In this document: positions 9,364 through 63,751 of the stretch, in pieces
Numbering within the stretch: position 1 is the stretch's first letter
Layout of the letters: the number at the start of each line of letters is the position of its first letter
NCBI GenBank assembly: GCA_035578905.1
Contig: JAQJVL010000249.1
Span: 872,001 to 936,000, forward strand
Length of the DNA stretch: 64,000 nt
Direction: 5' to 3'
Source: Stictocephala bisonia
Taxonomy: Eukaryota; Arthropoda; Insecta; Hemiptera; Membracidae
Notes under the pieces: generated by a model
What the model saw: the letters and a program-made list of their open reading frames with translations, nothing else
What the model was told of the DNA's origin: nothing
The model's database searches: none
Program-made: the position numbers and the translations under genes

Positions 9364-11497
9364 GTAGAAGAAAAGTTACGGAACAGATTAATAATATTTT
9401 AACGATTACAGATAAAGCAATAAAACTTGGTACATCAATACTGCATTTATTTTTAAGTAACTGCCATTTTGATGTCATATAAAGGGGATGGCCTTCAGGG
9501 AGTCAGCTAAAAATCATAAATAAGAGCATAGGTTGAGTAGTACATTAAATTAAAGGTCTTTAGTAGTACAACACAAAACCACAATTCCGAACTCAAAAGA
9601 TTAGCTTTTTTAAAAAATGAAGCTGGTTTAAAGTTTTATGAAGTTACAATGAAGGTTCTGATATAGACGATTTAACATTATTTTATTACCTCAAGTTGGG
9701 GAAGTTAAGCTTTGTAAATGCCTAGAGATAGTTTTTTAGGGTAGTTTGTGACTTCACTTACAATGGATGATGGTCCACAAGGGGTTCGATAAAAATATTA
9801 AAAATAGCATAGGTCAAAGTGTACATCATTTTAAAGGGGTTTATAGCACAGATGAACACCACAAACAGCACTTAAAAAGGTTGATCCAGTACAAAATAGC
9901 ATATGTTCAAAATTGTGTTGGTTGTAGTAGGACATTGCATTAGTGGCTACAAGTTAAGTGCACAAATAAATCAAAGAAAAAATGCTGCTGCATGCAATTC
10001 ATGACTGTCGTAAAAAAGTACATTCTGAAGTTTGACATGAAAAAGAGTTAGAAATGCAAAAATTAACTGTAAAAATATTTGGTAAGTAAGCATTAATTTT
10101 TTCATTACAATATTTGAACATCTGCCATTTTGAACTAAATCAATCCTTTTAAGTGCTGTTTGTGGTATTCATCTCCGCTAGTCAACCCCTTTAACCCTTA
10201 AAGCTTTATCCAATGCCTATTTTCCATTAACTGCTCATTTATTGTAAAAAAATAAAAATTATATTTTTTAGTTGCTCATTTTTTGTCTTGTTCTGTACAG
10301 GAAATAAAAGATATGATAACATTTTGAAACTTTTATTAGCTTATTTTACCTTTTTTTCTTATATATAAATATGTAAATAAGCAAACTTTTACTTGAAACT
10401 AAGCTTCAGGCCTAGATCACTTATATGAATCAATACAAAATATTATAACTATTAATAAAAAATGTATAATTTAGTAAATTTACATGTACATAAACTGATA
10501 AAGACATTAAGGGCCTGCACATAACAGATATAATAAAAAATAAGAACATACATAAAGCACTTGTGTAAGATGTACTTAGTACAAATTGCACAAAATCGTC
10601 AAAATCAGAATTGTCTGGATTATTCATATTGACACTTAAAACTAATAAATAACTAACATATATTAAACTAAAGTAATAATAAAACAACTAAATACACAGT
10701 TTCAAAGAAGTGAGGCGGCGGACAATGACAACTGCTCGGTTCAACAGTTGCTGTGTGTATATGCGCTTGTGGCGTTGGGCGGCACAGCGGAAATGTACAC
10801 TGCCAGACAAAAACCAGTATCGTAGTGATTGACAGGTCAACAAAAGGCCACATGTCACAAAATGCGTCTCTCATGAGCTACCACCCATAACCCAAACGCA
10901 CTACGGAATTAAATTATAAACATTACTTAGAAAATATTATATATGTAACTATTACGTGTATATGCGCTTACGGCGTTTAGAACAAAGTCAATATATGCGC
11001 ATATATGTGCTTACCAAGTAATACGGGTTAAAATGTTGTACATCTTGAACTATGCTAGTTTTAATATTTTTGTCGAACTCGTTGTGAACCATTATCCATT
11101 GGAAGTATTAAGTCACCAACTACCCTAAAAAACTATTTCTTGAGTCCAGTAGGAATTTACAAAGTTTAACTTTCCCAACTTGAGCTAAGAAAAAAATATT
11201 AGACCTTCTAGAACAGACCTTCAATGACTTAATATTATAAAGAGCAAACCTTTTGAGTTTGGAGTTGTGGTTTTATGTTATACTAATAAAGACCTTTAAT
11301 TTGATGTACTATTTGACCTATGCTCTCATTTAAGATTTTCATCTGACTCCCTGAAGGCCATCTCCTTAATATTACAGAAAAATGGCAGTTACTTAAAAAA
11401 TTAGATTAATAGGTGCAGTAATGATGTATCAAGTTTTATTGCTTAATCTGTAATCGTTAAAAAATTATTAATGGGTTCCAGAACTTTCCTTCCACAC
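9364..11497. mobile_element. Long fold-back element interrupted by a TTAA element
   Basis: The left arm (9364-about 9915) is the diverged reverse complement of the right arm (about 10105-10190 plus 11028-11497), each near 550 bp, with a spacer of about 190 bp. Matching landmarks include the block around 9485 (GGATGGCCTTCAGGGAGTCA) and its complement near 11350, and the block around 9850 and its complement near 10165. It has no open frame resembling a protein. The right arm is split by the element at 10195-11027. A fragment related to the outer arm occurs near 44265-44330. Confidence 0.8.
10195..11027. mobile_element. TTAA-flanked piggyBac-type MITE, 833 bp
   Basis: TTAA lies on both sides (10191-10194 and 11028-11031). 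The element starts CCCTTAAAGC and ends GTAATACGGG. The left fold-back arm supplies the empty site: TTTTAAAGG at about 9830 is uninterrupted, so insertion at TTAA is shown within the sequence. Near the right end a palindrome GCGCATATATGTGC is centred 23.5 bp from the terminus, and a wobble version lies 43 bp further in. The element has no transposase. A 68-codon minus frame inside is not recognisable. Confidence 0.8.
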
Positions 11498-16739: not shown

Positions 16740-16900
16740 CTGTCAGGAACAACAAACAGACTTGTAAGGCAAATTATCAACTAAATAAACTCTCTGCTAA
16801 AATACCACAATATTTGTGGAAATGCCCGGAATAACAGATTATTTAAAAACATGTGGGTATTGATGTCCGAGTTCAATGATCATGCCTTTTATTCAAGACT

Positions 16901-17158
16901 CAGAGCAACCAACGTGCAATAAATGTAGTACCTAATGCTTCCTCAGAGCAACCAACGTGCAATAAATGTGGTACCTAATGCCTCCTCTGAGCAACCAACG
17001 TGCAATAAATGTAGTACCTAATGCCTCCTCAGAGCAACCAACGTGCAATACATGTGGTACCTAATGCCTTCTCAGAGCAACCAACGTGCAATAAATGTAG
17101 TACCTAATGCCTCCTCAGAGCAACCAACGTGCAATAAATGTAGTACTGTACCTAATGC
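16901..17158. repeat. 43-bp minisatellite, six units
   Basis: Units begin at 16901, 16944, 16987, 17030, 17073 and 17116, each CAGAGCAACCAACGTGCAAT followed by AAATGTAGTACCTAATGCCT and CCT. Identity between units is high. The same unit, diverged, forms the array at 22865-23293 in the same orientation. Confidence 0.95.
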
Positions 17159-17789: not shown

Positions 17790-19244
17790 TAAATGAATTT
17801 ATTTCTCATAGATAATTACATAATACATGCATGAAAAATGTGAGAAATATACTGGCCACTTTAACCAGTAGCGTGGTCTGTTGTACAATAGAAAATTATA
17901 ATTAAATTAACAAGTAAATTGGAGTCTAGCTTTATAAGAAAAATATATTTAATATTTAGCCAACTGTAACATCTGAGGATTTTAAATAGTACAAATAAAA
18001 ATATATAACTGCAACTATATAAAATATGGAGTAGTAAGTAATTGTAAAGAAGAGAATTGTATTTAAACTAAGACATTATTGAAATACTCTACGTACTGCT
18101 GAGAAGAAAGCCAAGTGATTGTTTGCTTACAAAAATGTTTGAGATTATTAATATTCTTGTTTTGAAGTGGTATTTTATTAAAATATTTATGTCCCAAATA
18201 TAAAAAGAAATGATGGAAAATAGTTTTTTTGACTTTAGGCAATTTAAAACAATTATTTATGAAACTTCTCGTACTATGTGGGTGATTGGGTATAATGTTT
18301 TCTCTATTTCCGCTTCTAATAAAAAACAATCTCAAAACTTTAAAAATGAAAAGGTGCTGGATGGGTAGAATTTTTAACTGTTGTTTTAATGGAAAGGAAT
18401 GTGTTCGTTTAGATTTTTTAAACATTATAGGTAAAAAGTAATTTTGAGTGGTTCTCAGCTTGTCAATTAATGTTTTGTACGTTCCTCACCAACACGGCAA
18501 AGCATATTGTAATCTTGAATTTATTAATGCAAAATATAGTGTTCTTAACAACTGGACATTACAAATATTTCTCAAAAAAAAAAATTTTCTTATCTGTGAT
18601 CGTAATTTGGCGTGTAAATCTAAATTATGCGGCTCAAATGTAAGTTTTTCATCAAATGTAATTCCTAAATATTTAATAGTTTTTACTTGTTCTAATGGCT
18701 GGCAGGTACAAAGTTGGAAATCACAGGTTGAGGAATGAAAAATCAGTGGATAGGGTATTTCAGAACCAAAAAAATCGAAGAGAACAAATTTAGTCTTATT
18801 TATATTGACTATTATTTGCAAGACACCATCTCCTAAGTAACAAAAGATCATAATTTATTATGTCACATAATGCAGTAAGGTCTTTCTGTGCATAAAAAAG
18901 AGCTATGTCGTCTGCAAAGGTGTTAATGTTTCCATGGAAATTAGGGTTCAATAAATCATTAATAAAAATTAGGAAAAGGGTGGCCAATGTCACTGATCCT
19001 TGAGGAACTCCGGTCTGAACTGTTAGTTGGTTGCTGAAGGTGTTATTAATTTTTACTTGTTGTTTCCTTTCTGTGATGAAGCTTTTAAACCATTTTAAAG
19101 CCACTCCTCTGATCCCAACTGACTCTATTTTATTGAGAAGAATTTCATGATTGACCAAGTCAAACGCTTTTTTTAAATCTATAAAAAGTCCAATTGTCTT
19201 GAGTTTTGAGTTTAATCCAGTAAAAATGTAATCTGTTACGGTAA
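17790..19244 (-). pseudogene. 5'-truncated Jockey/RTE-type LINE, reverse transcriptase
   Basis: On the minus strand, starting near 19244, a reverse transcriptase reads FIDLKKAFDLVNHEILLNKI (motif A region), TGVPQGSVTLATLFLIFIND (motif B) and NTFADDIALFY (motif C, intact FADD near 18905). A frameshift near 18800-18850 moves the frame to KTIKYLGITFDEKLTF and the thumb. A further break precedes a C-terminal frame at 18425-18063 containing HSTRSFINNCFKLPKVKK. The 3' end near 17790 carries AATAAATTCATTTATTCA. The N-terminal reverse transcriptase, endonuclease and ORF1 are absent, as expected for 5' truncation. It is inactive through frameshifts. The exact clade is uncertain. Confidence 0.85.
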
Positions 19245-19268
19245 TTAATGCATTTTATTGTGGGCTAA

Positions 19269-19536: not shown

Positions 19537-19672
19537 AGCGCACACACACATACAATGGTATTGACCCACCCGCCACCCATATGCGTACAGTGGTATCGAC
19601 CCACCCGTCCAGCCATACACTTACAGTGGTATCAACCCACCTACTCACTCATACATGTACATTGATTGGTAT
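19537..19672 (-). repeat. CCC-rich minisatellite block of the dispersed GTATGGGTGGG family
   Basis: Three to four degenerate units of about 36 bp with the core CATACACTTACAGTGGTATC then ACCCACC. This is the reverse complement of the G-rich unit at 50738 and 53299. Confidence 0.85.
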
Positions 19673-20357
19673 TATAACATTCAAACTCATGTTGTTGATT
19701 ATTATTGTCATAAAACTATCCTTATTAATACAATATTTATATAAAAACAGCTGTTCAGTCAAAACAAAATAAAATTAATATGTTAGAATAAAATATATTT
19801 TATTGAGATATTATTTATTCACTTGTATTAGTTAATATGTAAAAAAAAATATTTATTTAATCTTAAAATCGTTAAATCTCTTTTATATAGTAATTAATTA
19901 TAGTATTCAACAAATAAATTATGATCCATATGACATGGCATTTCAATTCCACAAATGGGAGACTTCTAACCCAGTAATAAAGAGAATTAATAAATGAATA
20001 ATTCTTAACCCTCCACGCGCCACGCGTCTCGATCGAGATGCATTATTGTGTTGCTTAAGCGCCATCGTCTCGATCGAGACGCATTTCGCGCACGCTTACA
20101 TTTATTTATTAGCGCGGTTATTACGCATTTGTTTCACACATATTGCATACCGTTTTGAACATTAACGTCTATTACATGTATATAACGCAACATATCTTTT
20201 TATTTTTCACTCAGACAATGTTGGTAGACCTGAACTGTTGATGCATATGTTGCTAAGTCATCTCTCCAATCCAGTTTGTTTGTGTTCTTTGTTGATCGAC
20301 AAAACAATGTGTTAGTGTGCGTGTTTTGCGTGTGTTTTGCACTGATTTTATTCAAAA

Positions 20358-20456
20358 ATGAGTGAATTATCACGTAGTAGTGCTATTCGGGGTGTTTTAG
20401 ATGAATTAGATGACGGAAATATAAGTGACAACAGTGACATTACTGACTTGACATGA
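20358..20456 (+). pseudogene. piggyBac transposase N-terminal stub, copy 1
   Basis: A 32-residue frame, MSELSRSSAIRGVLDELDDG then NISDNSDITDLT, ends in TGA. The Asp/Ser-rich start is typical of piggyBac transposases before the catalytic domain. The rest of the gene is missing through internal deletion. Confidence 0.6.
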
Positions 20457-20538
20457 CATGACCCCCAAAAATTTGTGTATATAGTTCCTTTTTTTGTGTG
20501 CGTGTTTTGCGTGTGTTTTGCACTGATTTTATTCAAAA

Positions 20539-20637
20539 ATGAGTGAATTATCACGTAGTAGTGCTATTCGGGGTGTTTTAGATGAATTAGATGACGGAAA
20601 TATAAGTGACAACAGTGACATTACTGACTTGACATGA
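20539..20637 (+). pseudogene. piggyBac transposase N-terminal stub, copy 2
   Basis: Second copy of the same 32-residue stub, 181 bp downstream, with no difference that I could see in the coding part. Confidence 0.6.
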
Positions 20638-21056
20638 CATGACCCCCAAAAATTTGTGTATATAGTTCCTTTTTTTTGACATTTTTCAATTTTACCTTTG
20701 GTTTATCTACTATTGTGTATATATATTTTTATTCCTGTTAAGATTTTGCAGCTTTTGTACATTAGTGAAAATTGTGCTACATTATTGGTGGTTGACTTAT
20801 ATGTGTCCAAACTTAGAAAATTTGTTTGAAAAATTAACTTTTCAACTTTTCCGAAGATACTACATGCACCAACTTCATTGGTAAGTGCTAATTTATATTC
20901 CTTCTAATTATTTGTATCTTTGTGAACAAAATGATATGCAGCACTCTATATTTAGGGGATGGGAATACATTTTTATGATTTTTAAAAAAAACCCTTACGA
21001 AACCATCAAAATCGCGTAGCGTTTTAAGGTAATATACATGGCGTATATAGGGTTAA

Positions 21057-22864
21057 TTCTAAATATAAATTTATTTTTTTTAAATATAATAAGTAAAAGA
21101 CAGACACGATTAACCATACCCTGAGATTGGTTACCACAACAAATTGCATTTTAAATTATAGATTTCAATAAACATATTCTTTGTTACAATAATAACCTAT
21201 CGTTATCATTCATTTTATATACAATATTGAAAAATTATTATTATTATTAGATTATAAATAAAAAAATTTTGTTATATCATGCCATTATTTTCCTCGTTTA
21301 GTTAGTCACTTTAAATTGATTTCATCCAATTTAAAATCACATAATTATTTACTTGCGCGTATAAAATTAATGTATTGTAACCATACATTTCATAAGGATT
21401 ACAACGTAACCAAGTACAGTAATTAATTTTATGAGCTCTAGAAGCCAAGAAAATGTTGTTTCAGGAAATAGATAAAAACTTTTTTCTTGAATAGTTAAAA
21501 TTCCGAAATTTTTCAAACGTAAATAAAATATTCCACGTTTTGAAATGAAAATGTTATATATTTACGGGTTTTTTGAGTAGTAAAAGCGTAATGTTAATGC
21601 ACAGTAAAAAAAAGGAAACATTCCGGTACGTTTTTGTTCAAACTTGGATATAAATGATTAAAACTTATAATAACAATTACGAATTCGTGTGTCATCACGT
21701 ACAATCATATAAGAAGAACAATGGTGTAGTTGGATTTTTTATAGGCCTTTTAATCCCTTAGTAAACAGCCTTCAAACTCGGTTATACACAATTTCGGCAC
21801 CGATAGTAATACAGTCAATTCAACTTGTTGTTGAAGATTATTTTAGGAATTTTTTCAATTTAATTGATTGGAGTATAGCTTATGACATCACTATCAAAAT
21901 CTTGTCAAAACAAAATTGTTGGCCACATACATTCATAAAACAAACAAATGAAATTTTAAAACACTCTTGTCTTATTTATGTTTCAAGACGCTTTTACTTA
22001 CAGAAAGTTAAACATTTAGTAATAATACACTTCCTCTTTACATGTTCTGTGATCTACTTATACCAAGTAGGCTTAATATTAATACATACTAAAAAATGTA
22101 ACATTATTTTATTGAAGAGAAAATAGGCAAATGCTGTAGTTACTTTATTGCATATTTGTTACTAAACAGTTTACACTCCCAGTACATATTATAATAATTT
22201 GTTGCACCATCCTGCTTATAAAATAATCATTTTACCTTACATAATACAATATAATGTACTGTTGCCCAATAAGTACTGCATGGTGATTGACATACTCGTC
22301 TTGTGTGGGGTTTTATATATTTTAATATGCATCTTGAATTTGTGATTAAATTATAGTTGCTACAAACTGGAGTACGCAAAATTGGAAATTAACAAAAGGT
22401 AGCAGACGACGTATTAATTGTCGAGGATTATTTACAATGGGAACATCACTAGCACTGCGTTACTCCACGGTGCATGAGGGAACTAATATTATCCACTTTT
22501 TCAGGCAGTAGTAGTAGTGGGAGGAGCAGATTTGTCTGTAAGGTTTCGTGTTAATTTGAGAATATCACTTACTCGAGTACTGGGATTAACTTTTAGCAAT
22601 ATTTTAGGTGGTAGTAAGGTTAATACTCGTGTTAATATACGCATGCTCACGGGGTTCCATTTAACGATATATCCATACTCCTACAATTTGAATTTGGCAG
22701 AGTGAATCAGCACTCAACCTCAACCGAGTAATACTAATACACAGTACAAATATATTGTCATTACTACATACAATCGTTTAGTAACGAGTTGCTATTTTCC
22801 CATCCCCTAGTTTAATAATGAGCGTTTAAGGGTCTCCTTTTTCCTAGTGCCCCACGAGGCCGCT
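21057..22864. other. No feature recognised
   Basis: AT-rich intron sequence. A 62-codon frame near 22517 is not protein-like enough to call. Confidence 0.4.
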
Positions 22865-23293
22865 CAGAGCAACCAACATGCAATAAATGTTGTACCTAAT
22901 GGCTACTTACAACAACCAACTTGCAATAAATGTAGTACCTCATGCCTCCTCACAGCAACCAATTTGCAATAAATGTAGTACCTCATGCCGCCTCACAGCA
23001 ACCAATTTGCAATAAATGTAGTACCTCATGCCTCCTCACAACAACCAACTTGCAATAAATGTAGTACCTCATGCCTCCTCACAACAACCAACTTGCAATA
23101 AATGTAGTACCTCATGCCTCCTCAGAACAACCAACTTGCAATAAATGTAGTACCTCATGCCTCCTCACAACAACCAACTTGCAATAAATGTAGTACCTCA
23201 TGCCTCCTCACAGCAACCAATTTGCAATAAATGTGATACCTAATGCCTACTCACAGCAACCAACTTGCAATAAATGTGGTACATAATGCCTCA
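22865..23293. repeat. 43-bp minisatellite, about ten units
   Basis: Period 43, with consensus CAGCAACCAACTTGCAATAA then ATGTAGTACCTCATGCCTCC and TCA. It is the same family as 16901-17158 (CAGAGCAACCAACGTGCAAT) but separately homogenised: ACTTGC and CTCATG here, ACGTGC and CTAATG there. Confidence 0.95.
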
Positions 23294-25574: not shown

Positions 25575-27422
25575 CTAAAAAGTAAAGAGATATTAAATTT
25601 ATCTCACAAAAATAAAAATATTTACCAGAGTGGGCTGCATTTTGTTTGTACAGTATACTGTGGAAGACTTGCCTATTTAGTTCCTAAATAAGATAAAAAA
25701 AATCTTCATTGAAAACCCAGCTAGGGTAGAGCACTTGAATTTTGAATTTGTTAGAATAATTTTGCTATTTTGACATAATTTCACTTTTAAATATCAAATA
25801 CCATCAGGATATATAATATATAGCAGTGCAAAAGGCTTAAAATTAAGTTTTCATATTAATTACGATCTTGGCTCCCAGTCTGATGGGTAGTCCAATCCTC
25901 CAGAGATTACTCTTTAGTGTTTTTTTTCTGTTAATTTAAATGAACATTACAAGTACTGCAATTTCAAAATATATTTTTTGTTACACACAAATGCAAAGTA
26001 TCATGGACCACTTAAGTATACAGAATTAAGGGGTATATCAACATATAGTTAAAGGAGCGATACTGTTTTGGAATTTTTATTTTGTGAAGGAGGCGTTCTA
26101 GAATGTAACATGCACTATTTTTCAATAAATTATTGTAACCAATTGTACAATAAATTATACAATAAATTTACAATAGCAAAAAATACAATTATACAATAAA
26201 AATAGTGGTGAAATAGGCAACTATACAAATTTTGCTTATTGATTATGACAAAGTTGTCGTTGGTTAAGCAATGAAAAAAGGAGTGACAGATTATGTATTA
26301 GTAAGTTGGAGTATTTCCTGTCTACTGTTCCTGCACATGCGTTAACGGCAGTCTACATATATGTCAGTTGGAGCCTATACCACCTTACTACATTTCCTAC
26401 GTATGTGCTTGTGTTGATGAATAATGTGTCTTCAGTTTACGTAGGAATCTCATTTATTACTGTCACCAGTACATTTTCTTCAACACAGTTGTCTTTCATT
26501 AATAATCAAAACAAGTAAAAAACTAATTTTTTTATCATAAACATGTGTTATTTTAGCCTTTTACTTAATCAATACACACAAATTATTCATTACAGAAGTT
26601 TTATTTAATTTTTACTGCTTTTTAAAATTTATTGGTTAATCAGAGTTACTCATTTTAGGGCTGTATGTAGTGCTGTTCAAGAGTGGCGGTACCGCTTAAA
26701 GGGTTACTTAAATATTAGAACTGGGGTCAGTGCACGGCCATGTAACAAATAGACCTAATTTAATTTTAAATTTTTCCACTAGGAAGGGCTGTTCAATATT
26801 AAAAAAATACTAAATATGTTTGTTATATAATATGAATAAATATTTTTTTTAATAAGGCAGATTTCATTTTTTACTAAACTCTGCCTATTCCAAATATACT
26901 ATTTATTTATTTACTTTCAAGATGCCAATTGTCAAGACTTGGGCAAATATGGATTTTGAATTAATGTGATGAGTGTAGATGAGCGAATGTAATCTTTGTT
27001 ACAAACTAGGGCCGTATATTCCTTAGAACGTGTCATTAATTAATTGCCCAATGAATAACAGCTGGCGGTTATCAGCTGATCCCTTTCAAAATGTGCTTTG
27101 ACTCTGAGATTGAACTGAGAACCATTAGCTTATGAAGCTGTGCTTTAAACAGCTACGCTACTGTCCAATCATTGATCTTTATGGGGAATTATTCAGAAAG
27201 AGCAAGGGGGAGAATCAAAGGTGAATATTACTAATAAACAGTTCCAGTCAAAGCCAGGATTCAAATCTGTGCTATCTCTAACTCAGACTCAAAGACCTTG
27301 TGACTGTCCAAAAACATATATAATAGAATACGTACCTTATATTATTATATATTTTTATTATATAAACAAATTATGCAACAGCAAAATGAAATCTTATTTA
27401 CTAATGTAATAAAAATTCTTAC
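25575..27422. other. Intron C-D; no gene, SINE-like remnant
   Basis: A 1.85-kb intron of the PDZ gene. The stretch 27060-27180 contains, on the minus strand, tRNA-like boxes (TAGCGTAGCTG and AGTTCAATCTC) suggesting a SINE remnant. The rest is AT-rich with no feature. Confidence 0.4.
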
Positions 27423-30080
27423 CTAAATTTTCAATTTCCAATGCAACATAGTCTGAGGAGTGCAGTTCTAGAGATCCAACATGACTTGAACCAATGTCAT
27501 CAGTCAAAATAACAATTGGTATTCTAGTAGGCTTAGATACTTGACTGGCAGTTTCACCACCTGTTTTAAATTCTTTATCGGCATATTTCATTTGAACACT
27601 CTCAATACTTTCAATAGTTTTGTCTGTTTTATCAAAATAATTTTGGTGGTCCTCTGAACTAGTTTCATCATTTTCAAATAAAATATTTATTTCCTCCAAA
27701 TCTACATGTGTTGTGTTCTGTATTTCACTATTATTTTTGTTATTGGAATTTGAACGCTCAGTCTTTGGTTGGTTGACAGTTATGTGATTGTTACAAGCAA
27801 TATCTTTGCTAGTTTCTATACAGTCATTCTCATTTGAAAGTGAATCAACATTTTCTAAAATTGTAAGGCTGCTTTCCAAGGTTTCAAACCAACAGTTTTG
27901 TGTAATCTCTTTACAATTACTCCCGCGAGTTTGGCAATTCTTATTTTTACCAAAAACTGTTTTATCTATTGTTGTAAAACCATCCAATGGCAAATGGTCT
28001 TCTTGGTATTTAGAGCAATTAGGTTCTGACATTTCACAGTTTGAATTGATAGTAAATGTGCCACCAGAACTTTTTTGATTATCTGGACAGCAATCAAATA
28101 CAATATCATTAAAATTGTCAGTGGATTCAAATTCTCTTTCATTTTTAACGGTATGTTCCTCATTTGCTTGTAAAGAATCAAGTGAATCTGTTATTGAGTT
28201 AGTTTCAAAATTACCCTGAAGTTTATAAGAACTTTCAAAGTCCTCATCAGAATCATATTTAATATCTGCATTTTCCTGCTTTTGCATGTTTTCAAAGTAT
28301 GCAATCAAGGAAATCACAGCACCATGTTTAATAGACGGGGACAATGCAAATCGTGGGTTTACATTATTACTTTGCTCAATGTCAGTGGTAAGACATGCAA
28401 CCTCCAAGTAGTTACTCTCCTTAATGAAACCAGGGGTTTCACAAACATTAATTAATACATTATTTGATGCTTTAGTATTGAACACATCTATAGAACCTGA
28501 TTCTTGGTTCTCATTATCACTATCATCATCATCTTTTAAACTATAATTGATATTTGTTATTTTATTTTGGGTAACTATATCAGAATGATTATTCACAGTA
28601 GTGTTATATACAATATTCATATCAACAACACTATCTACATTATTACTATCAGCTAGTTTACAATACTCATTATCATTTGTTAAGCTACTTTGATTGAGAC
28701 AGGCCTCAAGAATAGGATTTCTGTCAATATTCTTTTCCAGAATTTCAGTTTCTCTTGCAATGTCAAAATTATCCTCATCAACTACACTGAGGGGGTAAGG
28801 AGACAGTGAACCAGGACTATCACTCAGTTCAAGCATGTTTCTTAGATATTCTGAAAATCTTTTTCTTTGTTTTGACAGACAATCCTCACTGTTAAGCCAG
28901 TCTCGAACAGTGTTTTCTTTTTGAAACTCTCCACTATAGAGGGAAAACTGGCTAGATATTTCTTTGTGGAAAGTCTTCACTGTCTGAGCTTCAAAGTAGT
29001 CCAACATTGTCTCATAACTCGGTGGTCCAAGATCTCCTGAACTTTTATTGTCAATGGTATCACTATTATTACATGAAACGGATTTGTAAAACTGACAGTC
29101 ATACTTCAGGTAAGAGGACCTGCTTTCTTGCTCTGCAATTTCAAAATAGTTTTGTTTGTGTGGGGGAGATTTTGAGTCTGAAAAGTACACCCCACTATCA
29201 ATTTCTTCCGAGTCTTTGATGCATATTTTATTACTCTTCTTTGAACCAATTATAAGCTCAGAAGTAACTATTTTATTTATATCATTCTCTTTTGAGCACA
29301 TCCCAAATTTATTAGTATGTCCATTATCAGTAAATGCATGATTTTCTTTATCTTCAACACTGAGTGAACAATACTCAGGTTTGTAGAATACACCTACAAT
29401 AGTTGCTGGTTTTTCCAAAAGATTATCACATGCCCTATTATATTGTAGGGCTTCAGTTATACCAAGGGATAAACTGTTTTTCTCTATACTAATTGACCTA
29501 GACAAACAATCTACTTCTAAAGGGATATCTAATACCCTGTCTTCTGTTATATTTTCAATATTATTACTCTGTTGGTTCTTTAAATTGTACAATACATATC
29601 TATAGTCCTCAAAAGTTTTAGAATTTGCATTTACTTCTAAACAATTCTCTTTATGCTGTTCCTCTTCTTTATACATAGAAGAACCGTTAGTATTTGTTTT
29701 AAGCAACTCTTGATATTTTTCAGTACCAAACAAATATTTGCTCTCAGTAACATTTTCATTGGCAGGTTTGGCATATGTTTTTCTTATATTTTTTTTATAT
29801 TCTACATCATTAACTGATTTAATTTTATAATTTCTGTTTAATTTTTCACCCTTTCCAAATATATTATCATTTTGTTTTTCAGTCTTTAGGGGTGAAATCA
29901 TTTCGTTAATATCTTTGCTATTTTGGAATCTATCTTTTCTCCTGGGCGGTGGTCTAACTGGCTGATCAGTTTCAAAAGTATTCTGCTTGATGCAAGTTTT
30001 TGTGGAATCTTCACTAGTTATCATTTTCCTCTTGTATCTGGGAGCAGGCACTGGAGGAATCAGTTTATATGCAGCACACT
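27423..30080 (-). CDS. PDZ scaffold gene, exon C (giant linker exon)
   Basis: A 2658-nt exon, open throughout. The acceptor is TTTGTTTACAG before 30080 and the donor TTTAG|GTAAGA after 27423. It encodes about 886 residues between the two PDZ domains. The sequence is rich in Asn, Ser, Glu and Asp with few hydrophobic blocks, so I infer mostly disordered linker. Near the start are proline-rich, SH3-ligand-like motifs PPVPAPRYKRK and QPVRPPPRRKDRF. Midway is a PPxY motif, LGPPSYETMLDYFEAQ, the family hallmark for WW-domain binding. The exon begins with two bases of a split codon and ends with one, matching exon B upstream and exon D downstream. No membrane segment or signal peptide is visible. 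A junction or cytoskeletal scaffold resembling insect 'big bang' or PDZD2 is possible but I cannot assign it. Confidence 0.87.
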
Positions 30081-30335
30081 CTGTAAACAAAAGCCAAAAT
30101 TGATAAAACAAATAGTTTTGATGAAAAATATAACAAAAGTAGTGTTTTTAAGAGAAACCTGGTAAAAATAATTTAGGTTCATTACCTGTCTTACTCCTGA
30201 TTATTGGAGCCAATATTTTCTAGCCCACTTAACTTACTGGCTCTATTATTTATGAAATCATTCAAGCTCCACTTAAATAGAAGTAGCCTGTTACCAGTGA
30301 GGAGGGAGATAGGAGGGGGAACTATCTGTCCCTTT

Positions 30336-30443
30336 TGTTCATACTACTGAACGTGTATGGAAGGGTGTGTGGGTCAATACCACCGTATATGTATGGGAGA
30401 GAGGGTAGGTCAGTACCACTTTACGTGTATGGGGGTGGGAGGG
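30336..30443 (+). repeat. G-rich minisatellite block (left of SINE)
   Basis: About three units of 36-38 bp with core GAACGTGTATGGAAGGGTGT and GGGTCAATACCACCGTATAT. It matches the block at 30767-30893 almost unit for unit. Confidence 0.85.
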
Positions 30444-30748: not shown

Positions 30749-30766
30749 AAGAAAGAGGGCCAATAC

Positions 30767-30893
30767 CAGCATACGTGCATGGGAGGGTGGGAGGGTCAAT
30801 ACTACTGAACGTGTATGGAAGGGTGTGTGGGTCAATACTTCGTATATGTATGGAAGAGTGGGTAGGTCAGTACCACTTTACATGTACGATTGT
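30767..30893 (+). repeat. G-rich minisatellite block (right of SINE)
   Basis: Units such as CTACTGAACGTGTATGGAAG then GGTGTGTGGGTCAATAC duplicate the block left of the SINE. Confidence 0.85.
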
Positions 30894-33662: not shown

Positions 33663-33812
33663 CGGAACGTAATGGCTCCTAAGAACTATCATAAAAAACA
33701 AAACTATTTACTATTTCTGGGGAATACAGCAATCGTTTGTGCATTAAGTGCCATTTACGAATAAACATTTACTATTTATGACTTGATCTGAAATTAACAC
33801 GTTAGCTGCCGT

Positions 33813-34070
33813 GCCGGTCATATCTGACCGGCTCCGAGCCTACCCAAAATGCCGGTCAATAGCCCAGTACAACCCTGTAATTGCCAAACTAAAGAAAACA
33901 ATACTTTTACAATATAATTATAATATGGGGTTTTTATTTACTTGTGTACCCCAATATAATAAAAAATACACACAGAATGCGCTTAATAAAATGTCGGTCA
34001 TATCTGACCGGCAAAGCTTTTTTCGTTGACGTATTTCACCAAACAAATCACTGCCGGCTAGATCTGACCA
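33813..34070. promoter_or_regulatory. piggyBac 1 left subterminal palindromes
   Basis: GCCGGTCATATCTGACCGGC at 33813-33832 (centre 24.5 bp from the end) and a one-base variant at 33993-34012. A half-site GCCGGTCA lies at 33851 and a degraded copy, GCCGGCTAGATCTGACC, at 34053. I infer transposase-binding sites. They lie upstream of the coding start at 34299, so autoregulation is also possible. Confidence 0.7.
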
Positions 34071-34298
34071 CAAGGGTCTTCAACTTTTCGAGAGTAATTT
34101 CGCTCTGTGAGGTTTGTATTAAAGTGTCACACAGCCCGAGAGCCCGCCAATTTACTTATAGCTGTCGTGTGTTTCCCGCCAATTTACAGCTGTCGTGCGT
34201 TTCCCGCCAATCAAGCTCTGTAGTCTGCTTGCACTCAGTGACCTAGTGTGCTTTCTACAGTGATTTTGACATGCGTTCTTATTGCTTCATAATTAATT

Positions 34299-36128
34299 AT
34301 GAGTAGACGTACCAATTTAAATGACTATCATATTGATCATTTATTGGATTGTTCGATGTCGAGTGCAGCAGATCGATTTGATCATATAGCAAGTGATGAG
34401 GAAGAGCGTGATTTGGGGAATATTAGCAGTGATTATGTCGACGACACGGATGAAGATCCGGACTTTGCTCCAAGTGACTCTGAAGATGGTAGCACGGATG
34501 AGGCAGAAACAATGGATGCTAGTGTGATTGAAAGTGTACTTAGTGACGTGAACACTGAAAATGAAGCAACTCTCGATAATGGAACTGGTGAGGTTGACGA
34601 ATGGGGAATTTTTATGGGTAAGCAACAAAATTTTCCCTTTACTACTGATTCAAAATTTAATTTTGATTTGCCAAATGATGCTACTCCTATTGATTATTAC
34701 AATGTATTTTTGACTGACGATATCATTGAGATGATGGTCCTAGAGACTAATAGAAATGCTAACAACGTATTAAGAGATGTACGTCTGAATCAAAGTAGTA
34801 GGTTGAAAAAATGGCGTCCTACAAATGGGGATTAAATAAAAAAGTTTCTTGGAATCCTTATGTGGATGGGTTTAGCTCGCTTTCCCCGTATCACAGACTA
34901 CTGGAGCAAAAATATTCTGTATAATAATTCTGTAGCTAACCAAGTAATGAGTAGGAATCGTTTTCAGCTAATGCTCCGGTTTTGGCATTTCAACGACAAT
35001 GCCCGTATTGAACAGGATGGGCGGATCTCTAAAATCTTGCCACTGATAACAAAGCTAAATGATCTCTTTTTGAGCAAAAAATCTGCAGACCAAGATCTAG
35101 TAGTAGATGAAAGCATGATACCTTTTAGGGGACGGCTTTTGTTTCGTCAATACATACCTAACAAAACACACAAATATGGCCTAAAAATCTTCAAGCTTTG
35201 TGACAAAATGGGCTACACATTTCGTACTAAACTTTACATGGGAAAAGGTACAGTGAACGATATTAACAATGCACAAGTTTCGACTTTGGTTGTGATGGAA
35301 CTAATGACCGATCACACTGATAAGGGTCACCGGCTATACGTTGATAATTACTATACGTCAATTCCATTGGCTAAACAACTTTTGGAGAAAAGAACTCACC
35401 TTACAGGTACACTCAGATCAAACAGGAAAGCTTTGCCCAGTGAGGTGATAAAGGCAAAACTTAAGAAAGGAGATATGGTGGCTCTTGAAACTACAGATGG
35501 CATAGTAGTTAGCAAATGGAAAGATAAGAGAGAAGTAAGAATGTTGTCTACTGTCCATGGATTAGATTTTGTAGATACTGGCAAGAAAGACAAGAAAAAC
35601 GAGCCAATCCTTAAGCCTTTGGTTATAACCGAATATGATAAATCAAAGATGGGTATTGATTTATCAGACCAGATGTCGTCCTACAGTACGGGAGTACGTA
35701 AATCAAGAAGATGGTACCACAAAGTTGCCGAAGAGATGCTTCTTGGAACCGCTGTTGTAAACTCGTGGTTGGCCTACAACGATGCGACGAAAGCAAGAGC
35801 AACAGCTGATGGGCGACAAAAAAAGAATGCTATGTCAATAACTCTTTACAAAGAAAAATTAGCCAAATCATTGATGGGAATAAAAGAAGGCATCATTCCT
35901 CCAGTGAAGATCACAGGACACCACTATCTCTCTGTCTCAGAAAACTTCACGGGCGAGGGAAAAACCAAACATAGAATAAGGAAGTATTGCAAATTATACT
36001 ACAAGAAAGCTGTTGAAAGAACAGGACGGAAGGGAGCCAAAAACCTAAGAAAAGTAAACACGTTTTGTGAGAAGTGCCCTGAGAAGCCTTACTTTTGCAA
36101 GGACTGTTTCCGTGAAATCCATAAATAA
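34299..36128 (+). pseudogene. piggyBac transposase, one in-frame stop
   Basis: Starts MSRRTNLNDYHIDHLLDCSM and continues with an acidic N-terminus (DTDEDPDFAPSDSEDGSTDE). Next comes the DDE_Tnp_1_7 catalytic domain: VVDESMIPFRGRLLF with the first Asp (near 35105), RLYVDNYYTSIPLAKQ with the second (near 35340), and MGIDLSDQMSSY with the third (near 35660). The C-terminus has a cysteine cluster, CEKCPEKPYFCKDCF, the usual zinc-binding tail. It would be 610 codons, a normal family length. A single TAA at 34833-34835 interrupts the frame just before IKKFLGILMWMG, and the frame is the same on both sides, so this is one nonsense change and not a frameshift. All three catalytic Asp residues are present. 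Family role: excises and inserts at TTAA without leaving a footprint. Confidence 0.92.
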
Positions 36129-36331
36129 ATAGTGACGACATGATTTTGTAACAGTATTTTGTATATTCCTTACGATTTAACAATGTAATAATATACCATT
36201 CTTATGTTCAGTAATGTGTATAATTTGAATTTTCCTATCATTAATTTATAGTAGGCCTGTAACGTTCACATTTGACAAGAAAACTTGATTATTTGCAATA
36301 AAAAAATAGGCAACAAATTGAAATAATTACT

Positions 36332-36600
36332 GCCGGCCAGGTATGGCCGGCACTAGAGCTCATAAACTAGCCTGAATCCAAAGCATTTGTTTGACTACTA
36401 AAGGAAGGCGTAGAGCAATAGAAACCATACTGTATGTAGCAGTGGTAATCTACATTGATAGTAGTTCATTGTTTGGCCACAAGAACGCAGCACTTTATGG
36501 AACACATAACCTCAAAAATAACAACGCAATTGGCTACTGCCGGTCATTTATGACCGGCATAACACTGGTCACAAATTTACGTGCCGGCTAGATATGACCT
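36332..36600. promoter_or_regulatory. piggyBac 1 right subterminal palindromes
   Basis: GCCGGCCAGGTATGGCCGGC at 36332-36351, GCCGGTCATTTATGACCGGC at 36539-36558 and a degraded copy, GCCGGCTAGATATGACC, at 36583. The last two are 44 bp apart. The arms match those at the left end. Confidence 0.7.
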
Positions 36601-36651
36601 ACACGGCAGTTCTGTAAAAGTCAAAAATTTTAATGGCAGCTAACGTGTTAA

Positions 36652-38923: not shown

Positions 38924-38937
38924 CCCTTTGAGGGCCA

Positions 38938-39043
38938 GACGGCAATTTATTGCCGTCAAAGATCGTATTTAAAAACGCCAGACGGCAATATCTTGCCGCC
39001 GATGATATACGCGAGAAGCGCCAGACGGCTATATATAGTCGCT
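38938..39043. promoter_or_regulatory. piggyBac 2 phased palindromes
   Basis: GACGGCAATTTATTGCCGTC (38938-38957), GACGGCAATATCTTGCCGCC (38981-39000) and GACGGCTATATATAGTCGCT (39024-39043). Centres are 38947.5, 38990.5 and 39033.5, that is 23.5, 66.5 and 109.5 bp from the element end. The left palindrome is nearly perfect and they decay inward. Likely protein-binding or hairpin sites at the 5' end. Confidence 0.8.
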
Positions 39044-39109
39044 TTGATATTCATTGTTGTATCAATACATATGACTTCAAATTATTATTGTTCTATGTTT
39101 TTCTGATTC

Positions 39110-39601
<492 letters not shown>

Positions 39602-39942
39602 ATTTACAAAATAATATTTACAAGTCATTATCAGGCCTACATTTTTTTATTTACAAACATGCTTGGCAAAGCAAGTGCCATGACAGCCTTCATTGCACCG
39701 AGAACAAGCTGTTCTGGATCGTTTTCTTCCAGTTTTATAGTCCTTTCCCTTAGGGGTGCATACCCAACATGTCTTTTGATTATTACCAGGTAGAGTAATT
39801 ACACCTAATGCACGGTTATTTGAAGCTGCTTCTTGTACACGCTGCTCTCCAAGCCATTCTTCTGTTACACTGGCAACAATACTTGCAATAAAGGGATATC
39901 TTTCAATAGGTTTTATATTATTCTTCTTACAATTGTATATGA
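39602..39942 (-). repeat. Inverted copy of the piggyBac 2 transposase 3' end
   Basis: The reverse complement of this stretch matches about 41822-42157 with very high identity, covering the transposase C-terminus, including its cysteine cluster, the stop codon and about 50 bp of 3' sequence. The two copies form inverted repeats about 1.9 kb apart. The copy ends exactly at the mariner terminus. Confidence 0.9.
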
Positions 39943-40191
39943 TATCACTTTTACTTTGAACCTCTGTGATTTTTTTACTTCACTGTTTTCATGTGACATT
40001 ATCAGCTGACTGGTACCAGTGCTAGTCTACTAGGATATTCGTTGTTTATCATTTCTGCTCCGTTGTGTTTATGTTATTATTGTTTGTTGGTTTCGTTCAT
40101 ACTTCAGTCTTTTAGTTTATAGTTGTAATTATATATAGTTTATAGTATTTAGTTGTTACTTGTTAGTGTATAATTGTAAATATGAGTGATA

Positions 40192-42109
40192 ATTTACGAT
40201 CTCATGGAAGTGAAATTGACCGACAATTAGGCCTAGATAATGATCTTGCATCGTCTGATAGTGAATTGGAGGTTAGTGAGGATGAAGATACGGAAAGTGA
40301 TTTAGATAGATTTAGGTGAAAATGAATCAGGATCATTATTTGGTGATGACACGGATGATGATCCTACCTATGAACCTCAATCAACTTTGACAACACAAAG
40401 ACGGATTCTCACAGGTAGGCCTAATCCAAACATATTTACTGGGGAACAAACTAGACCTGTAGGTCAAGGTAGGCCTGTATTTAGCTCAAGTGAATCTGAT
40501 GATGACTCAAATGACCTAATAAATCGATCACAGCCTAATAACCAACATCAGTATGTTTGGGAAAAACTCAATACTGGTAATAACACTTCAACTAGGCCAC
40601 TCACACATAACTTTCAATACATGGAATGTACTGGTCCAAAACATTGTCCACCCTTGGTTGCTAGTCCAGTTGAGTAGTTCAACCTTTTTTTTTACTACAA
40701 CACTTTTAACTTTATTCCAAAGACAAACAAACAGATATGCTGAACAATTGCTAGCAGCCAAAAGAGACCAACTTTCACCACACAGTCGATTTAGAGCTTG
40801 GATCCCTACATCTGTACTTGAAATAAAAGCCTTTATCATAACTATTTTAAACATGGGCTTAATTCAAAAGCCAACAATGAAGTCATACTGGACAGACTGT
40901 AGTAATCAGGCAACTCCCTGGTTTAAAAAAATGTTTAAAAGAAATCGTTTTGAACTTTTGCTAAGCTGCTTCCGTATGGTTGATGATACAAAACTTCAAA
41001 ATGTAATGAACCAAATTATGACTCATCACAAAAATTTAATCCCATTATTGACCATTGTAATAATGTATTTACACATTTTTATGTACCCCACCAACAGTTA
41101 TCAATTGATGAAAGCATAATTGGAACAAAATGCCAGACCAAAATGATGCAGTATCTACCCAACAAACATCACAGTAGATGGGGTATAAAACTTTGGGTCC
41201 TTTGTGACTCCGTGACTAATTATTGTCTCAGTTTTTATTGCTATAAAGGAAAAAGTGCAAATCCTCAAGAAATAAATGAAGTAAAGGAAAAGGGGTTATC
41301 TCATGTTGTTGTCTCAAAACTTTTAACTGTAGGCAATTTTCTAGGTAAAGGTTTTCATTTATTTACTGACAACTTTTACACTAGTGTTCCCCTAATGGAC
41401 TGGTTATATAAAAACAAAACCTTTATGACTGGTACTGTAAAAAGAGATAGGAAACACCTACCAAATGAGATAAAAGCTAAAATTGATGTAGGTTGTTCTG
41501 TGTACTGTAAAGAAAAGAACAAGCCCCTTGTAGCTTTAGGCTTTAGACAAAAAAAAGTCACAGAAAAATCCTGTACTGTTACTTTCTTCAAAACCAGAAA
41601 TAAATGATACAGAATAAGTAAGAAGACGGCATGGAAGAGTCACATCAGAAAAAAAACCAGCTATTGTACAAAGCTATTGTAAGTACATGGGAGGAATTGA
41701 TACTCATGACATGATGCTGTACACCTATCTTGATGAGCGACGCTCAATGAAATATTGGCGCAAAGCAACATTTAATATTTTTTCAAGAATGGTACTCAAT
41801 TGCTACATTATTTATAAAACAAATTGTAAGAAGAATAATATAAAACCTATTGAAAGATATCCCTTTATTGCAAGTATTGTTGCCAGTGTAACAGAAGAAT
41901 GGCTTGAAGAGCAGCGTGTACAAGAAGCAGCTTCAAATAACCGTGCATTAGGTGTAATTACTCTATCTGGTAATAATGAAAAGACATGTTGGGTATGCAC
42001 CCCTAAGGGAAAGGACTATAAAACTGGAAGAAAACGATCCAGAACAGCTTGTTCTCGGTGCAATGAAGGCTGTCATGGCACTTGCTTTGCCAAGCATGTC
42101 TGTAAATAA
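40192..42109 (+). pseudogene. piggyBac transposase, multiply frameshifted
   Basis: Starts MSDNLRSHGSEIDRQLGLDN with a Ser/Asp/Glu-rich N-terminus. A frameshift near 40315 leads to FGDDTDDDPTYEPQST. Another near 40677 leads to FRAWIPTSVLEIKAFIITIL (start of the catalytic domain). A break near 41060 precedes QLSIDESIIGTKCQTKMMQY with the first catalytic Asp. The second is in FHLFTDNFYTSVPLMDWL and the third in YMGGIDTHDMMLYTYLDERR, reached after a stop near 41605. The C-terminus has a cysteine cluster, CWVCTPKGK...CSRCNEGCHGTC. At least four disruptions make it dead although all three Asp residues survive. It belongs to a different piggyBac lineage from element 1: little residue identity outside motifs, different ends and different palindrome arms. 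Confidence 0.88.
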
Positions 42110-42735
42110 AAAAATGTAGGCCTGATAATGACTTGTAAATATTATTTTGTAAATAGTGTGTGTAACTGTTTTAAAACTGTTTATGGATCCAGAAATCAGC
42201 TCTTTACTAGTACAGCAGATATGTAAGTAATTATTTTAATTTCTTCGCATTTAATAATTATTAGTATTAACAATTAGAATAAGTTGCTGAAGTAATTTAT
42301 GTATATTTCTACAAAATGTGTTATAAATAACTTATTTATAGGGGAAATAACACCAAATTTTCTACAAATGTTCCTTTTTAAATGCAAAATAAAATAATAT
42401 AATTCCCCACTGTAAAATTATTTTTACTTTTTTAGTTATTAGCAAAAATAAATAAATAAATTTAAAAAATTTGTAAATTTATTTCAATTATTATTATTTT
42501 TTTTAACTACTTAGAATTACATCTATATATTTTTTTATCAATAGTTTATACCTATACAAATACTTTGGTGCATTATTATGTCAGTGCCTAACTTATAAGA
42601 TAAATTATAAATTTATTGGTCGACAACTGCAAAATCGCCCATTTTGGCTTGGCATTTTTAGCTAAACAGAACAGGTATGATATGTGAAAATATTTTGTAA
42701 CATGTCATATTTCTGCCTGGTCCTCAAAGGGTTAT

Positions 42736-45297: not shown

Positions 45298-45690
45298 TCA
45301 CACATACATTGATATCGACCCACCCGCCCGCCCATACACATACATAGGTACCGATCCACCCATACACATACATTGGTATCGACCCACCCATACACATACA
45401 TTGATATTGACCCACCCGCCCACCCATACACATACATTGATATCGACCCACCCGCCCACCCATACACATACATTGATATCGACCCACCCACCCGCCCATA
45501 CATATACATAGGTACCGAACCACCCATACACATACATTGGTATCGACCCACCCATACACATACATTGATATCGACCCACCTGCCCACCTATACATTGATA
45601 TCGACCCACCCGCCCACCCATACACATACACTGATCAATACCACTGCATGTGTATGGGTGGGTGGGTGTGTCAATACCACTGTGACTTCT
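45298..45690. repeat. GTATGGGTGGG-family minisatellite, about 10 units, polarity switch
   Basis: Units of about 35 bp with core CATACACATACATTGATATC then GACCCACCCGCCCAC. Near 45630 the polarity flips to the G-rich form (GCATGTGTATGGGTGGGTGG), so the array ends in an inverted unit. Long open frames across it on both strands are repeat artefacts. Confidence 0.92.
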
Positions 45691-50737: not shown

Positions 50738-50840
50738 AAATACCACTGTACGTGTATGGGTGGTGGGTGCGTCAATACCACTGTACGTGTATTGGTGGGT
50801 GGGTATGTCAATACCACTGTACGTGTATGGGTGGGCGGGT
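50738..50840 (+). repeat. GTATGGGTGGG-family minisatellite, three units
   Basis: Three units of about 35 bp: ACCACTGTACGTGTATGGGT then GGTGGGTGCGTCAAT. A single reversed unit remnant lies near 51045-51066. Confidence 0.9.
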
Positions 50841-53298: not shown

Positions 53299-54043
53299 TA
53301 CCAATGTACGTGTATGAGAGGGTGGATGGGTCAGTATCACCGTACGTGTATGAGAGGGTGGGTGAGTCAGTTGCCATGGGACGTGTATGAGAGGGTGGAT
53401 GGGTTAGTTACCACAGGACGTGTATGAGAGGGTGGATGGGTCAGTTACCACAGGACGTGTATGAGAGGGTGGATGGGTCAGTTATCACAGGACGTGTGTG
53501 AGAGGGTGGATGGGTCAGTTACCACAGAACGTGTATGAGAGGGTGGATGGGTCAGTATCACCGTACGTGTATGAGAGGGTGGGTGAGTCAGTTGCCATGG
53601 GACGTGTATGAGAGGGTGGGTGAGTCAGTTGCCATGGGACGTGTATGAGAGGGTGGATGGGTTAGTTACCACAGGACGTGTATGAGAGGGTGGGTGAGTC
53701 AGTTGCCATGGGACGTGTATGAGAGGGTGGATGGGTTAGTTACCACAGGACGTGTATGAGAGGGTGGATGGGTCAGTTACCACAGGACGTGTATGAGAGG
53801 GTGGATGGGTCAGTTATCACAGGACGTGTATGAGAGGGTGGATGGGTCAGTTACCACAGGACGTGTATGAAAGGGTGTGGATGGGTCAGTTACCACAGGA
53901 CGTGTATGAGAGGGTGGATGGGTCAGTTGCCACAGGACGTGTATGAGAGGGTGGATGGGTCAGATACCACAGGACGTGTATGAGAGGGTGGATGGGTCAG
54001 TTACCACAGTACGTGTATGAGAGGGTGGATAAGTCAGTACCAA
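53299..54043 (+). repeat. 37-bp minisatellite, about 20 units, with higher-order structure
   Basis: Unit ACCACAGGACGTGTATGAGA then GGGTGGATGGGTCAGTT. Variant units (ATCACCGTACG, GCCATGGGACG) recur in the same order in separate blocks near 53330, 53555 and 53700, so multi-unit blocks were duplicated. Related to the GTATGGGTGGG arrays elsewhere, but the unit reads GTATGAGAGGGTGG. Confidence 0.95.
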
Positions 54044-57489: not shown

Positions 57490-58144
57490 CCCTTTCGATG
57501 CCGGGCATATTTTCCCTTGGTATGCGAGAAATGCCGGGGGTATTTTTACTGAATATGCATAGTTTATGTTATTTTGTTCTAACTTTGTCATTTTTCAATA
57601 TATTTTCATAATTATTTTTTGGTTTTTCTTGTTTTGAAATGCTCTTTTTACTACTTATATATTTTCTTAAATAAAATATTGGTTTTAATTTGTAAAATCA
57701 ACTTTTTTAAAAATTAAAAATTTTTTTAATTTTTCAATTTTGAAACTTTTCAGACCATACAACAAAAATACTAGGGCTATAAAAGTGACTTTATTTGAAA
57801 GAACATTTAATTACCAACATGCATACCAAATTTCAAAGTCTTGCCTTGAAAATCCCACGATTTATCGTAATTTTTTTCGACAGTACAAAATGACATATTT
57901 GTCACAATTGAGCGATTATTTCAAGTGTGACAAATATATTTCAACAAACGCATATTTAAAAGATGTTTAAAACACTTTTTCTGAGTACTATAATCAATTC
58001 TCAACAGATTGGTACCGTATATGTGGCATATTAACGAAAATGCCTTATCGAAAAAAAAAATTACGAGCGGTCCGAAATATCGGACCGCGGCATTTTTAGC
58101 GTAACTACCGCTGTCCGATTTATCGGACAGCGGCATCGAAAGGG
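57490..58144. mobile_element. TTAA-flanked piggyBac-type MITE, 655 bp
   Basis: TTAA on both sides (57486-57489, 58145-58148) and perfect 14-bp inverted ends CCCTTTCGATGCCG. The right end has two strong palindromes centred 23.5 and 66.5 bp from the terminus. The left end has only degenerate GCCGGGCATATTTT-like copies. No transposase. Confidence 0.88.
58067..58131. promoter_or_regulatory. Phased palindromes of the 57.5-kb TTAA MITE
   Basis: GGTCCGAAATATCGGACC centred 58077.5 and CTGTCCGATTTATCGGACAG centred 58120.5; spacing is exactly 43 bp. The element end (58144) is 23.5 bp beyond the second centre. Confidence 0.8.
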
Positions 58145-62932: not shown

Positions 62933-63629
62933 TCACTGGTGAGTAAACTTAGTAATGTAATACTTTGGGAAAACGAAATAAACTTCATGAAACATTATAA
63001 TTTAATTGTTTTTAATAACGATTTGTATTTCAATAATTACAGTAGCATAATAAATACTTTTTACACAGTATGTAAAATATTGTTTATTCTGTGTGCTTGT
63101 GTAAAAAATATGAGCATAAAAAGTCAAAACAAAACAATATACACGTTATATAATACTTGTAAGATTTCTTTTATTTGAAAATGACGAAGATTTTTTTTAA
63201 AGTAAATATTTTTTGTAGTTATGATCAGCTTTGTACATTAAAACAACATTACTGATTTATTTTATATATTTTTAATATTTGGTAATTTATTACAACGCAC
63301 AAATTACTAACAAAAAACTACTTAAAACTAACGTAGAGGTATGTTTGTCCGATATAAATTCAGAATCTGTGAATGTTTTGTACTTGGCTAGTAGCACGTA
63401 AGCTCCATTACAATTGAATGGGCAATTCAGCGCCCACAGTCTCAACTAAAGTGTGAACGGAGAGTAGAGATGACACAGCCACGTTTTCTTTCAAGGTAGT
63501 TATTTAACACACATTATACAAATTTAACTTTATATTTTTTCAATTGAATTAGATGTATTTCTCAACTAATTCGTGGATATTTGAATTTATTTAACCAAAA
63601 AATAACGTCACAATAAATTAATTACGCAA

Positions 63630-63730
63630 CAACGAAATATCGTTGCATATCACTTTTCAGCCGTACAGCCAACAGCAATATATTGTTGTTTACCAGTTTT
63701 TGGTGAGTTTTGCTACAACGATAAATCGTT
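63630..63730. promoter_or_regulatory. Phased palindromes of the 63.7-kb TTAA-type end
   Basis: CAACGAAATATCGTTG centred 63637.5, AACAGCAATATATTGTTGTT centred 63680.5, AACGATAAATCGTT centred 63723.5. Spacings are 43 and 43 bp, and the last centre is 23.5 bp from the element end at 63747. Confidence 0.8.
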
Positions 63731-63751
63731 ACTTATCAGCCAAAGGGTTGA

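Follow-up and report, generated by a model that had tools for sequence, protein, structure and literature searches.

Palindromes at a fixed distance from piggyBac-type left ends in 64 kb of Stictocephala bisonia DNA: likely sites for paired cysteine-rich domains

Why should transposon families with different palindrome sequences carry those palindromes at the same distance from their ends? The question is raised by a stretch of 64,000 nucleotides from the membracid Stictocephala bisonia (GenBank assembly GCA_035578905.1, contig JAQJVL010000249.1, positions 872,001 to 936,000 of the forward strand), referred to as the window herein, in which a preliminary description had noted palindromes spaced at 23.5 + 43n base pairs (bp) from the termini of TTAA-flanked elements. 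We distinguish four elements with paired terminal inverted repeats (TIRs), A (left end at 38924), B (33798), C (58144) and D (20009), and two single ends, E (63747) and F (11027). Rescanning confirmed the palindromes, and chance does not account for their position. We regard it as highly probable that those at the piggyBac-type left ends are sites for the paired cysteine-rich domains (CRDs) of transposase dimers, with one dimer per module of 41–44 bp.

Position of the palindromes at the element ends

Palindromes and TTAA-bounded ends were rescanned over both strands of the window, independently of the earlier list. Distances were counted from the terminal base of the element (bp number = distance + 1), and a palindrome was called strong when 8 or more of the 10 pairs in a 20-bp stretch matched, 3 or more of these being G/C. 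Over 1510 TTAA ends and 336 centres, 23.5 was the commonest centre, with 4 palindromes where the mean was 0.33. Exactly at this distance, 4/11 ends that combine TTAA with CCC have the centre of a strong palindrome, versus 0/1503 TTAA ends without CCC, 1/732 CCC ends without TTAA and 50/127880 in an any-position control. When random ends were built from the dinucleotides of each end itself, none of 4000 replicates reached 4. At centres from 12 to 119.5 of the 11 TTAA+CCC ends, strong palindromes were confined to 23.5 (four), 66.5 (two), 64.5 (one) and 107.5 (one), the last belonging to 33204, which is probably no element end. The window holds 33 strong palindromes in total, five of which lie 23.5 or 24.5 from TTAA-CCC or TTAA-CAC, and elements A, C and D carry at their ends the only three strong pairs 41–45 bp apart in the 64 kb. 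In scans of other DNA the exact end patterns of element A gave 0 matches; in viral contigs the patterns of C had 2 matches and those of B 11, all of which we took as chance, and a palindrome at 23.5 or 24.5 was present in 0/13 of these, one of them having a palindrome at 31.0.

All centres previously listed for A, B, C and D were recovered (Table 1), as was the first site at end F, the three modules at end E being weaker, and the position proved to be common to the families while the palindrome sequences differ. The left ends of A–D, where the palindrome lies near the tip, begin with CCC or CAC and carry GCC at bp 11–13; the palindrome has its centre at bp 24.5 in A, C and D and at bp 25.5 in B. 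GCC at bp 11–13 was present at 7/8 ends of the four TIR-paired elements, including both ends of D and missing at 42731, versus 0/7 other listed ends, and in A, B, C and D it extends to GCC(A/G) at bp 11–14. This motif and the palindrome recur jointly at +43 bp in A and C, and at +86 bp also in A; end E has GATA, GGTA and GATA at bp 11–14, in phase with its modules. The 43-bp step noted earlier holds in A, C and E, and it fails as a universal value, being 41 bp in D and 44 bp in B, where it is seen at the right end only.

The two ends of an element are unlike. Within 300 bp of the right terminus, A, C and D had no palindrome up to threshold. Element B has at its right end a degenerate module that resembles the left-end one (24/31 bases) and is placed 30 bp further in, with an intact module 44 bp beyond. 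Off the 43/44-bp grid lie two more palindromes that are of, or close to, the type in element B: one at 34002, 204.5 bp in from its left end, and one at 36341, 305.5 bp in from its right end.

Families and transposases of the elements

The elements had been called unrelated. A transposase of the PF13843 (DDE_Tnp_1_7) family lies within A and B, TTAA is found at both ends of B, C and D, and A, B, C and D all have short TIRs that begin with CCC or CAC; A is flanked by TTAA and a mutated TTAT. The two PF13843 relics fall into different clades and are 35% identical over 169 amino acids. Given these relics and the shared end features, the elements are better described as different families of apparently one superfamily: they look like piggyBac-type elements, to which the gene-less ones presumably also belong.

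The transposase relic of element A matches PF13843 with E = 2.3e-35, and a query joined from its pieces was 80% identical to its best match, the full-length protein P0121 of the leafhopper Homalodisca vitripennis. The best protein match to the element B transposase is also from H. vitripennis (73%); compared with P0001, the B copy has Tyr in place of one conserved C-terminal Cys. C-terminal Cys/His residues are conserved in full-length relatives of A and B, and the block has a predicted local distance difference test score (pLDDT) of 78–96 in the predicted structures. Both transposases match piggyBat by profile and by fold; the missing CRD match in 6x67 was given no weight in these comparisons. 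We dropped a clear CRD-type difference between A and B, as the A-type profile also aligns with the piggyBat C terminus. Transposase scans of the viral contigs and genome contigs found no relative.

Element A also contains a 334-bp inverted repeat, with arms at 39601–39934 and 41822–42155 that are 99% complementary; one arm overlaps the relic of the transposase in its 3' part, which places an inverted copy of that part upstream of the gene. Element D contains a 181-bp tandem duplication (20315–20676, 100% matches), with a short frame, acidic at its N-terminus, beginning in each copy; no homologue turned up among the fetched proteins. No convincing partner was found within the window for end E, and none was found for end F: 61748 was dropped for E (13/18 bases, with a DDE_3 frame in between) and 10195 for F (12/18, tied with unrelated sites).

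A likely explanation and its rivals

The preliminary description was familiar with short subterminal repeats in piggyBac and not with this palindrome layout. It is known from T. ni piggyBac (PMC7351741), from human MER85/PGBD3 (PMC3459987) and above all from piggyBat (PMC11707139), and since both the position and the modular repetition occur in these family members, the design is not new.

The left end of piggyBat has three motif-plus-palindrome modules at a 44-bp step, each with a core motif (the G motif, bp 11–16 in the first) followed by the palindrome, and its ends are strongly asymmetric, as here (PMC11707139). The GCCA motif of element A sits where the piggyBat G motif does, and a core motif in phase with the palindromes, as at the piggyBat left end, is seen in A and C. 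The sequences are unrelated to those of piggyBat, in the motif (GCGGGA in piggyBat) as in the palindrome. The distances also differ slightly: we derive a centre at bp 25.5 for piggyBat, versus bp 24.5 with a step of 43 (or 41) bp among A, C, D, E and F, and the step falls short of 44 bp in A, C and E (43) and in D (41), whereas element B has the piggyBat numbers, bp 25.5 at its left end and a 44-bp step at its right end. The piggyBat end is bent at bp 25 and 69 (PMC11707139, PMC13405395), the second bend being roughly perpendicular to the first in the transpososome (PMC13405395). Because the steps in the window vary (41, 43 and 44 bp) and piggyBat bends in this manner, the earlier suggestion that the sites lie on the same face of the DNA is doubtful.

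Other relatives share parts of this layout. In T. ni piggyBac (IFP2), a CRD dimer occupies a palindrome at bp 17–33 of the left end (PMC7351741) and the right-end palindrome is displaced inward, like that of element B; there is one internal repeat per end, as far as described, and no 43-bp series, and its CRD fold differs from that of piggyBat (PMC11707139). In human MER85/PGBD3 the 13-bp TIR is followed, after 3 bp, by a 16-bp palindrome that is needed for binding (PMC3459987), from which we derive a centre at bp 24.5, equal to that of A, C and D; MER85 has this single palindrome, and the other PGBD3 copies are 59 bp upstream of the open reading frame and 114 bp from the 3' TIR. Coleopteran piggyBac clades have the terminal motifs CCCTTT, as in A, C and E, and CACGTT, as in B (PMC12732532); the clade logo spans the first 24 bp, and the available text reports no palindromes. 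Inner inverted repeats in subterminal regions are described as a general feature of invertebrate piggyBac-like elements (as cited in PMC12324416). In the literature compared, and among the matches listed, a repeated module of this kind is found in piggyBat only. The contribution of the window is a set of several families that differ in palindrome sequence, share the position and have two to three modules at 41, 43 or 44 bp; most families with a second module step by 43 bp, and two have three modules (A and, more weakly, E).

On this basis dimeric protein sites, as proposed earlier, are the likely reason for the layout. By analogy with piggyBat, a short family-specific motif at bp 11–14 would be gripped by the transposase core, and the palindrome centred at bp 24–25 would take both CRDs. 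Module 1 would hold the catalytic outer dimer and bend the end; module 2 would hold an inactive, architectural inner dimer required to bring this end into synapsis with the asymmetric right one; and module 3, where present, would hold an extra dimer that may be inhibitory and lower activity. The position would then be fixed by protein architecture, with the palindrome sequence free to change along with the CRD. We infer binding and the assembly of dimers and tetramers from this analogy; the positions, their statistics, the transposase relics in two elements and the asymmetry of the ends were observed directly.

Several observations weigh against this interpretation. With steps of 41 bp in D and 44 bp in B, 43 bp is no rule. 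Seven of the 11 TTAA+CCC ends lack a palindrome at 23.5, of which 57490 and 21052 are right ends and 10195, 12407, 15611, 33204 and 61748 may be no elements. At end E none of the three modules previously listed counts as strong, and the flank is TTGA in place of the TTAA claimed; end F carries one confirmed site only, the wobble version claimed at 66.5 being below threshold. Elements C and D and ends E and F are without a recognisable transposase with which to pair the palindrome and a CRD (pieces of C, of D and of the tracts behind E and F had no convincing match among the fetched proteins by blastp, best E = 0.011), and the alignment of the B-type profile continues across the C terminus of T. 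ni piggyBac too, besides that of piggyBat. Each family was read in one copy, within the window. Nine pairs of modules within one end could be compared: each has 0 or 1 double changes that keep a pair, and at 2–6 positions one of the modules has a broken pair. The evidence for selection on symmetry as such is thus weak, and just two pairs of inter-module spacers could be compared.

These comparisons also bear on the strongest rival, shared descent by tandem duplication, in which further modules arose as head-to-tail copies of the first and 43 bp would reflect the inherited length of a repeat unit and not a selected distance. Palindromes of the modules within one end are alike (13–17/20 identical in the 9 pairs), element A can be read as three direct repeats with spacings of 43 and 43 bp, element D was reported as a 41-bp tandem repeat, and the common GCC at bp 11–13 hints at a shared ancestry of the ends. 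If the modules were simply copies, the spacers between them might retain similarity. True inter-module spacers occur in A and E only and are 8/19 and 7/19 identical, versus a mean of 5.3 for random 19-mers, so leftover similarity is possible; random 19-mer pairs do equally well in 14% and 27% of cases, respectively, and with values this near to random the spacer sequence is not clearly conserved in this tiny sample. Spacer length, in contrast, is exact in A and E, the palindrome sequences differ among the families, and piggyBat has its 44-bp step with unrelated sequence (PMC11707139). We consider duplication an unlikely explanation of the spacing. With few double changes and no clear spacer conservation, constraint is better supported by the window for position than for symmetry or the step. 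The earlier claim that the geometry is selected is, for the step itself, plausible and weakly shown here, the two spacer comparisons being indistinguishable from chance.

A role as hairpins of RNA or DNA (cruciforms or sources of small RNA), in place of protein docking, is very improbable for the palindromes. They are inverted repeats with short A/T-rich centres, and a hairpin or cruciform has been suggested as a possibility for the subterminal repeats of human piggyBac-like elements (PMC12324416), yet hairpin function does not require a distance to the terminus that is fixed to the base, and in the published structures CRD dimers sit on equivalent palindromes as duplex DNA. That chance palindromes were picked by eye near TTAACCC can be dismissed: the ends had been chosen by a reader with the sequence in view, ends E and F are weak and the window is just 64 kb, but the exhaustive scan with its controls, the random replicates and the chance end matches in viral contigs all argue otherwise, the scan speaking for the group and not for E or for the second site of F.

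The layout could form part of a superfamily-wide end code of fixed position and free sequence, for and against which we judge the case to be evenly balanced. Across piggyBac clades without a shared palindrome sequence, the centre would lie at bp 24.5 ± 1 and the step at 41–44 bp, with the transposase dimer and tetramer as the ruler; families would switch specificity by changing CRD and palindrome jointly, leaving the ruler as it is, and three-module left ends would make self-restriction by a third dimer recurrent. The authors of the piggyBat study suggested that a third, subterminal site may suppress activity widely (PMC11707139). To this the window contributes four left ends with different palindromes: A and, more weakly, E have three modules in phase, C and D two. 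Together with the close full-length relatives P0121 and P0001 these make that question testable. A positional rule would also be of use in locating the active ends of new piggyBac vectors and in placing gene-less non-autonomous elements in the superfamily.

Feature coordinates and other contents of the window

Table 1. Features of the window (positions within the 64-kb stretch; centres are distances in bp from the terminal base)
Feature	Position	Strand	Details
piggyBac element A	38924..42731	+	3808 bp; left end 38924, right end 42731; TIR match 13/14; PF13843 inside
Palindrome 1 of A	38938..38957	+	centre 23.5 (bp 24.5), 9/10 pairs
Palindrome 2 of A	38981..39000	+	centre 66.5, 8/10 pairs
Palindrome 3 of A	39024..39043	+	centre 109.5, 7/10 pairs; three copies spaced 43, 43
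GCCA candidate core motif of A	38934..38937	+	bp 11–14; again in phase at 38977, 39020
Broken piggyBac transposase (PF13843) of A	40306..42109	+	several frames, C-terminal Cys/His domain
piggyBac element B	33798..36647	+	2850 bp; CACGTT termini, TTAA both sides; end match 17/18, TTAA flank counted
Left-end palindrome of B	33813..33832	+	centre 24.5, 9/10 pairs
Right-end palindrome of B	36539..36558	-	centre 98.5 from 36647, 9/10 pairs
Degenerate right-end module of B	36583..36602	-	centre 54.5, 5/10 pairs
piggyBac transposase frame of B	34293..36128	+	one in-frame stop; PF13843 E 4e-73 for part past stop
Non-autonomous element C	57490..58144	-	655 bp; left end 58144; 18/18 end bases identical including TTAA
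Palindrome 1 of C	58111..58130	-	centre 23.5, 9/10 pairs
Palindrome 2 of C	58068..58087	-	centre 66.5, 9/10 pairs
Probable non-autonomous element D	20009..21052	+	1044 bp; 14/18 end bases match including TTAA
Palindrome 1 of D	20023..20042	+	centre 23.5, 8/10 pairs
Palindrome 2 of D	20064..20083	+	centre 64.5 (41-bp step), 8/10 pairs
End E, three AT-rich palindromic modules	63628..63747	-	centres 23.5, 66.5, 109.5: 6/10, 9/10, 7/10 pairs; flank TTGA
End F (11027), palindrome	10994..11013	-	centre 23.5, 8/10 pairs; one TTAA only
36–37-bp minisatellites	19546–19641, 30354–30433, 30755–30877, 45300–45635, 50739–50840, 53308–54042		

Two tandem arrays about 6 kb apart, at 16899–17146 and 22863–23292, consist of related 43-bp units in 5.8 and 10 copies; they have the period of the palindrome modules and lie away from the element ends. 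The scattered minisatellites have similar units, of the ACGTGTATGG...GGGTGGGT type or its complement. A 917-amino-acid open frame on the minus strand (27394–30147) had no Pfam match at E 0.001. Remnants of a DDE_3 transposase, which we take to be of the Tc1/mariner type, and of a reverse transcriptase lie at 62237–62932 and 18796–19254, respectively.
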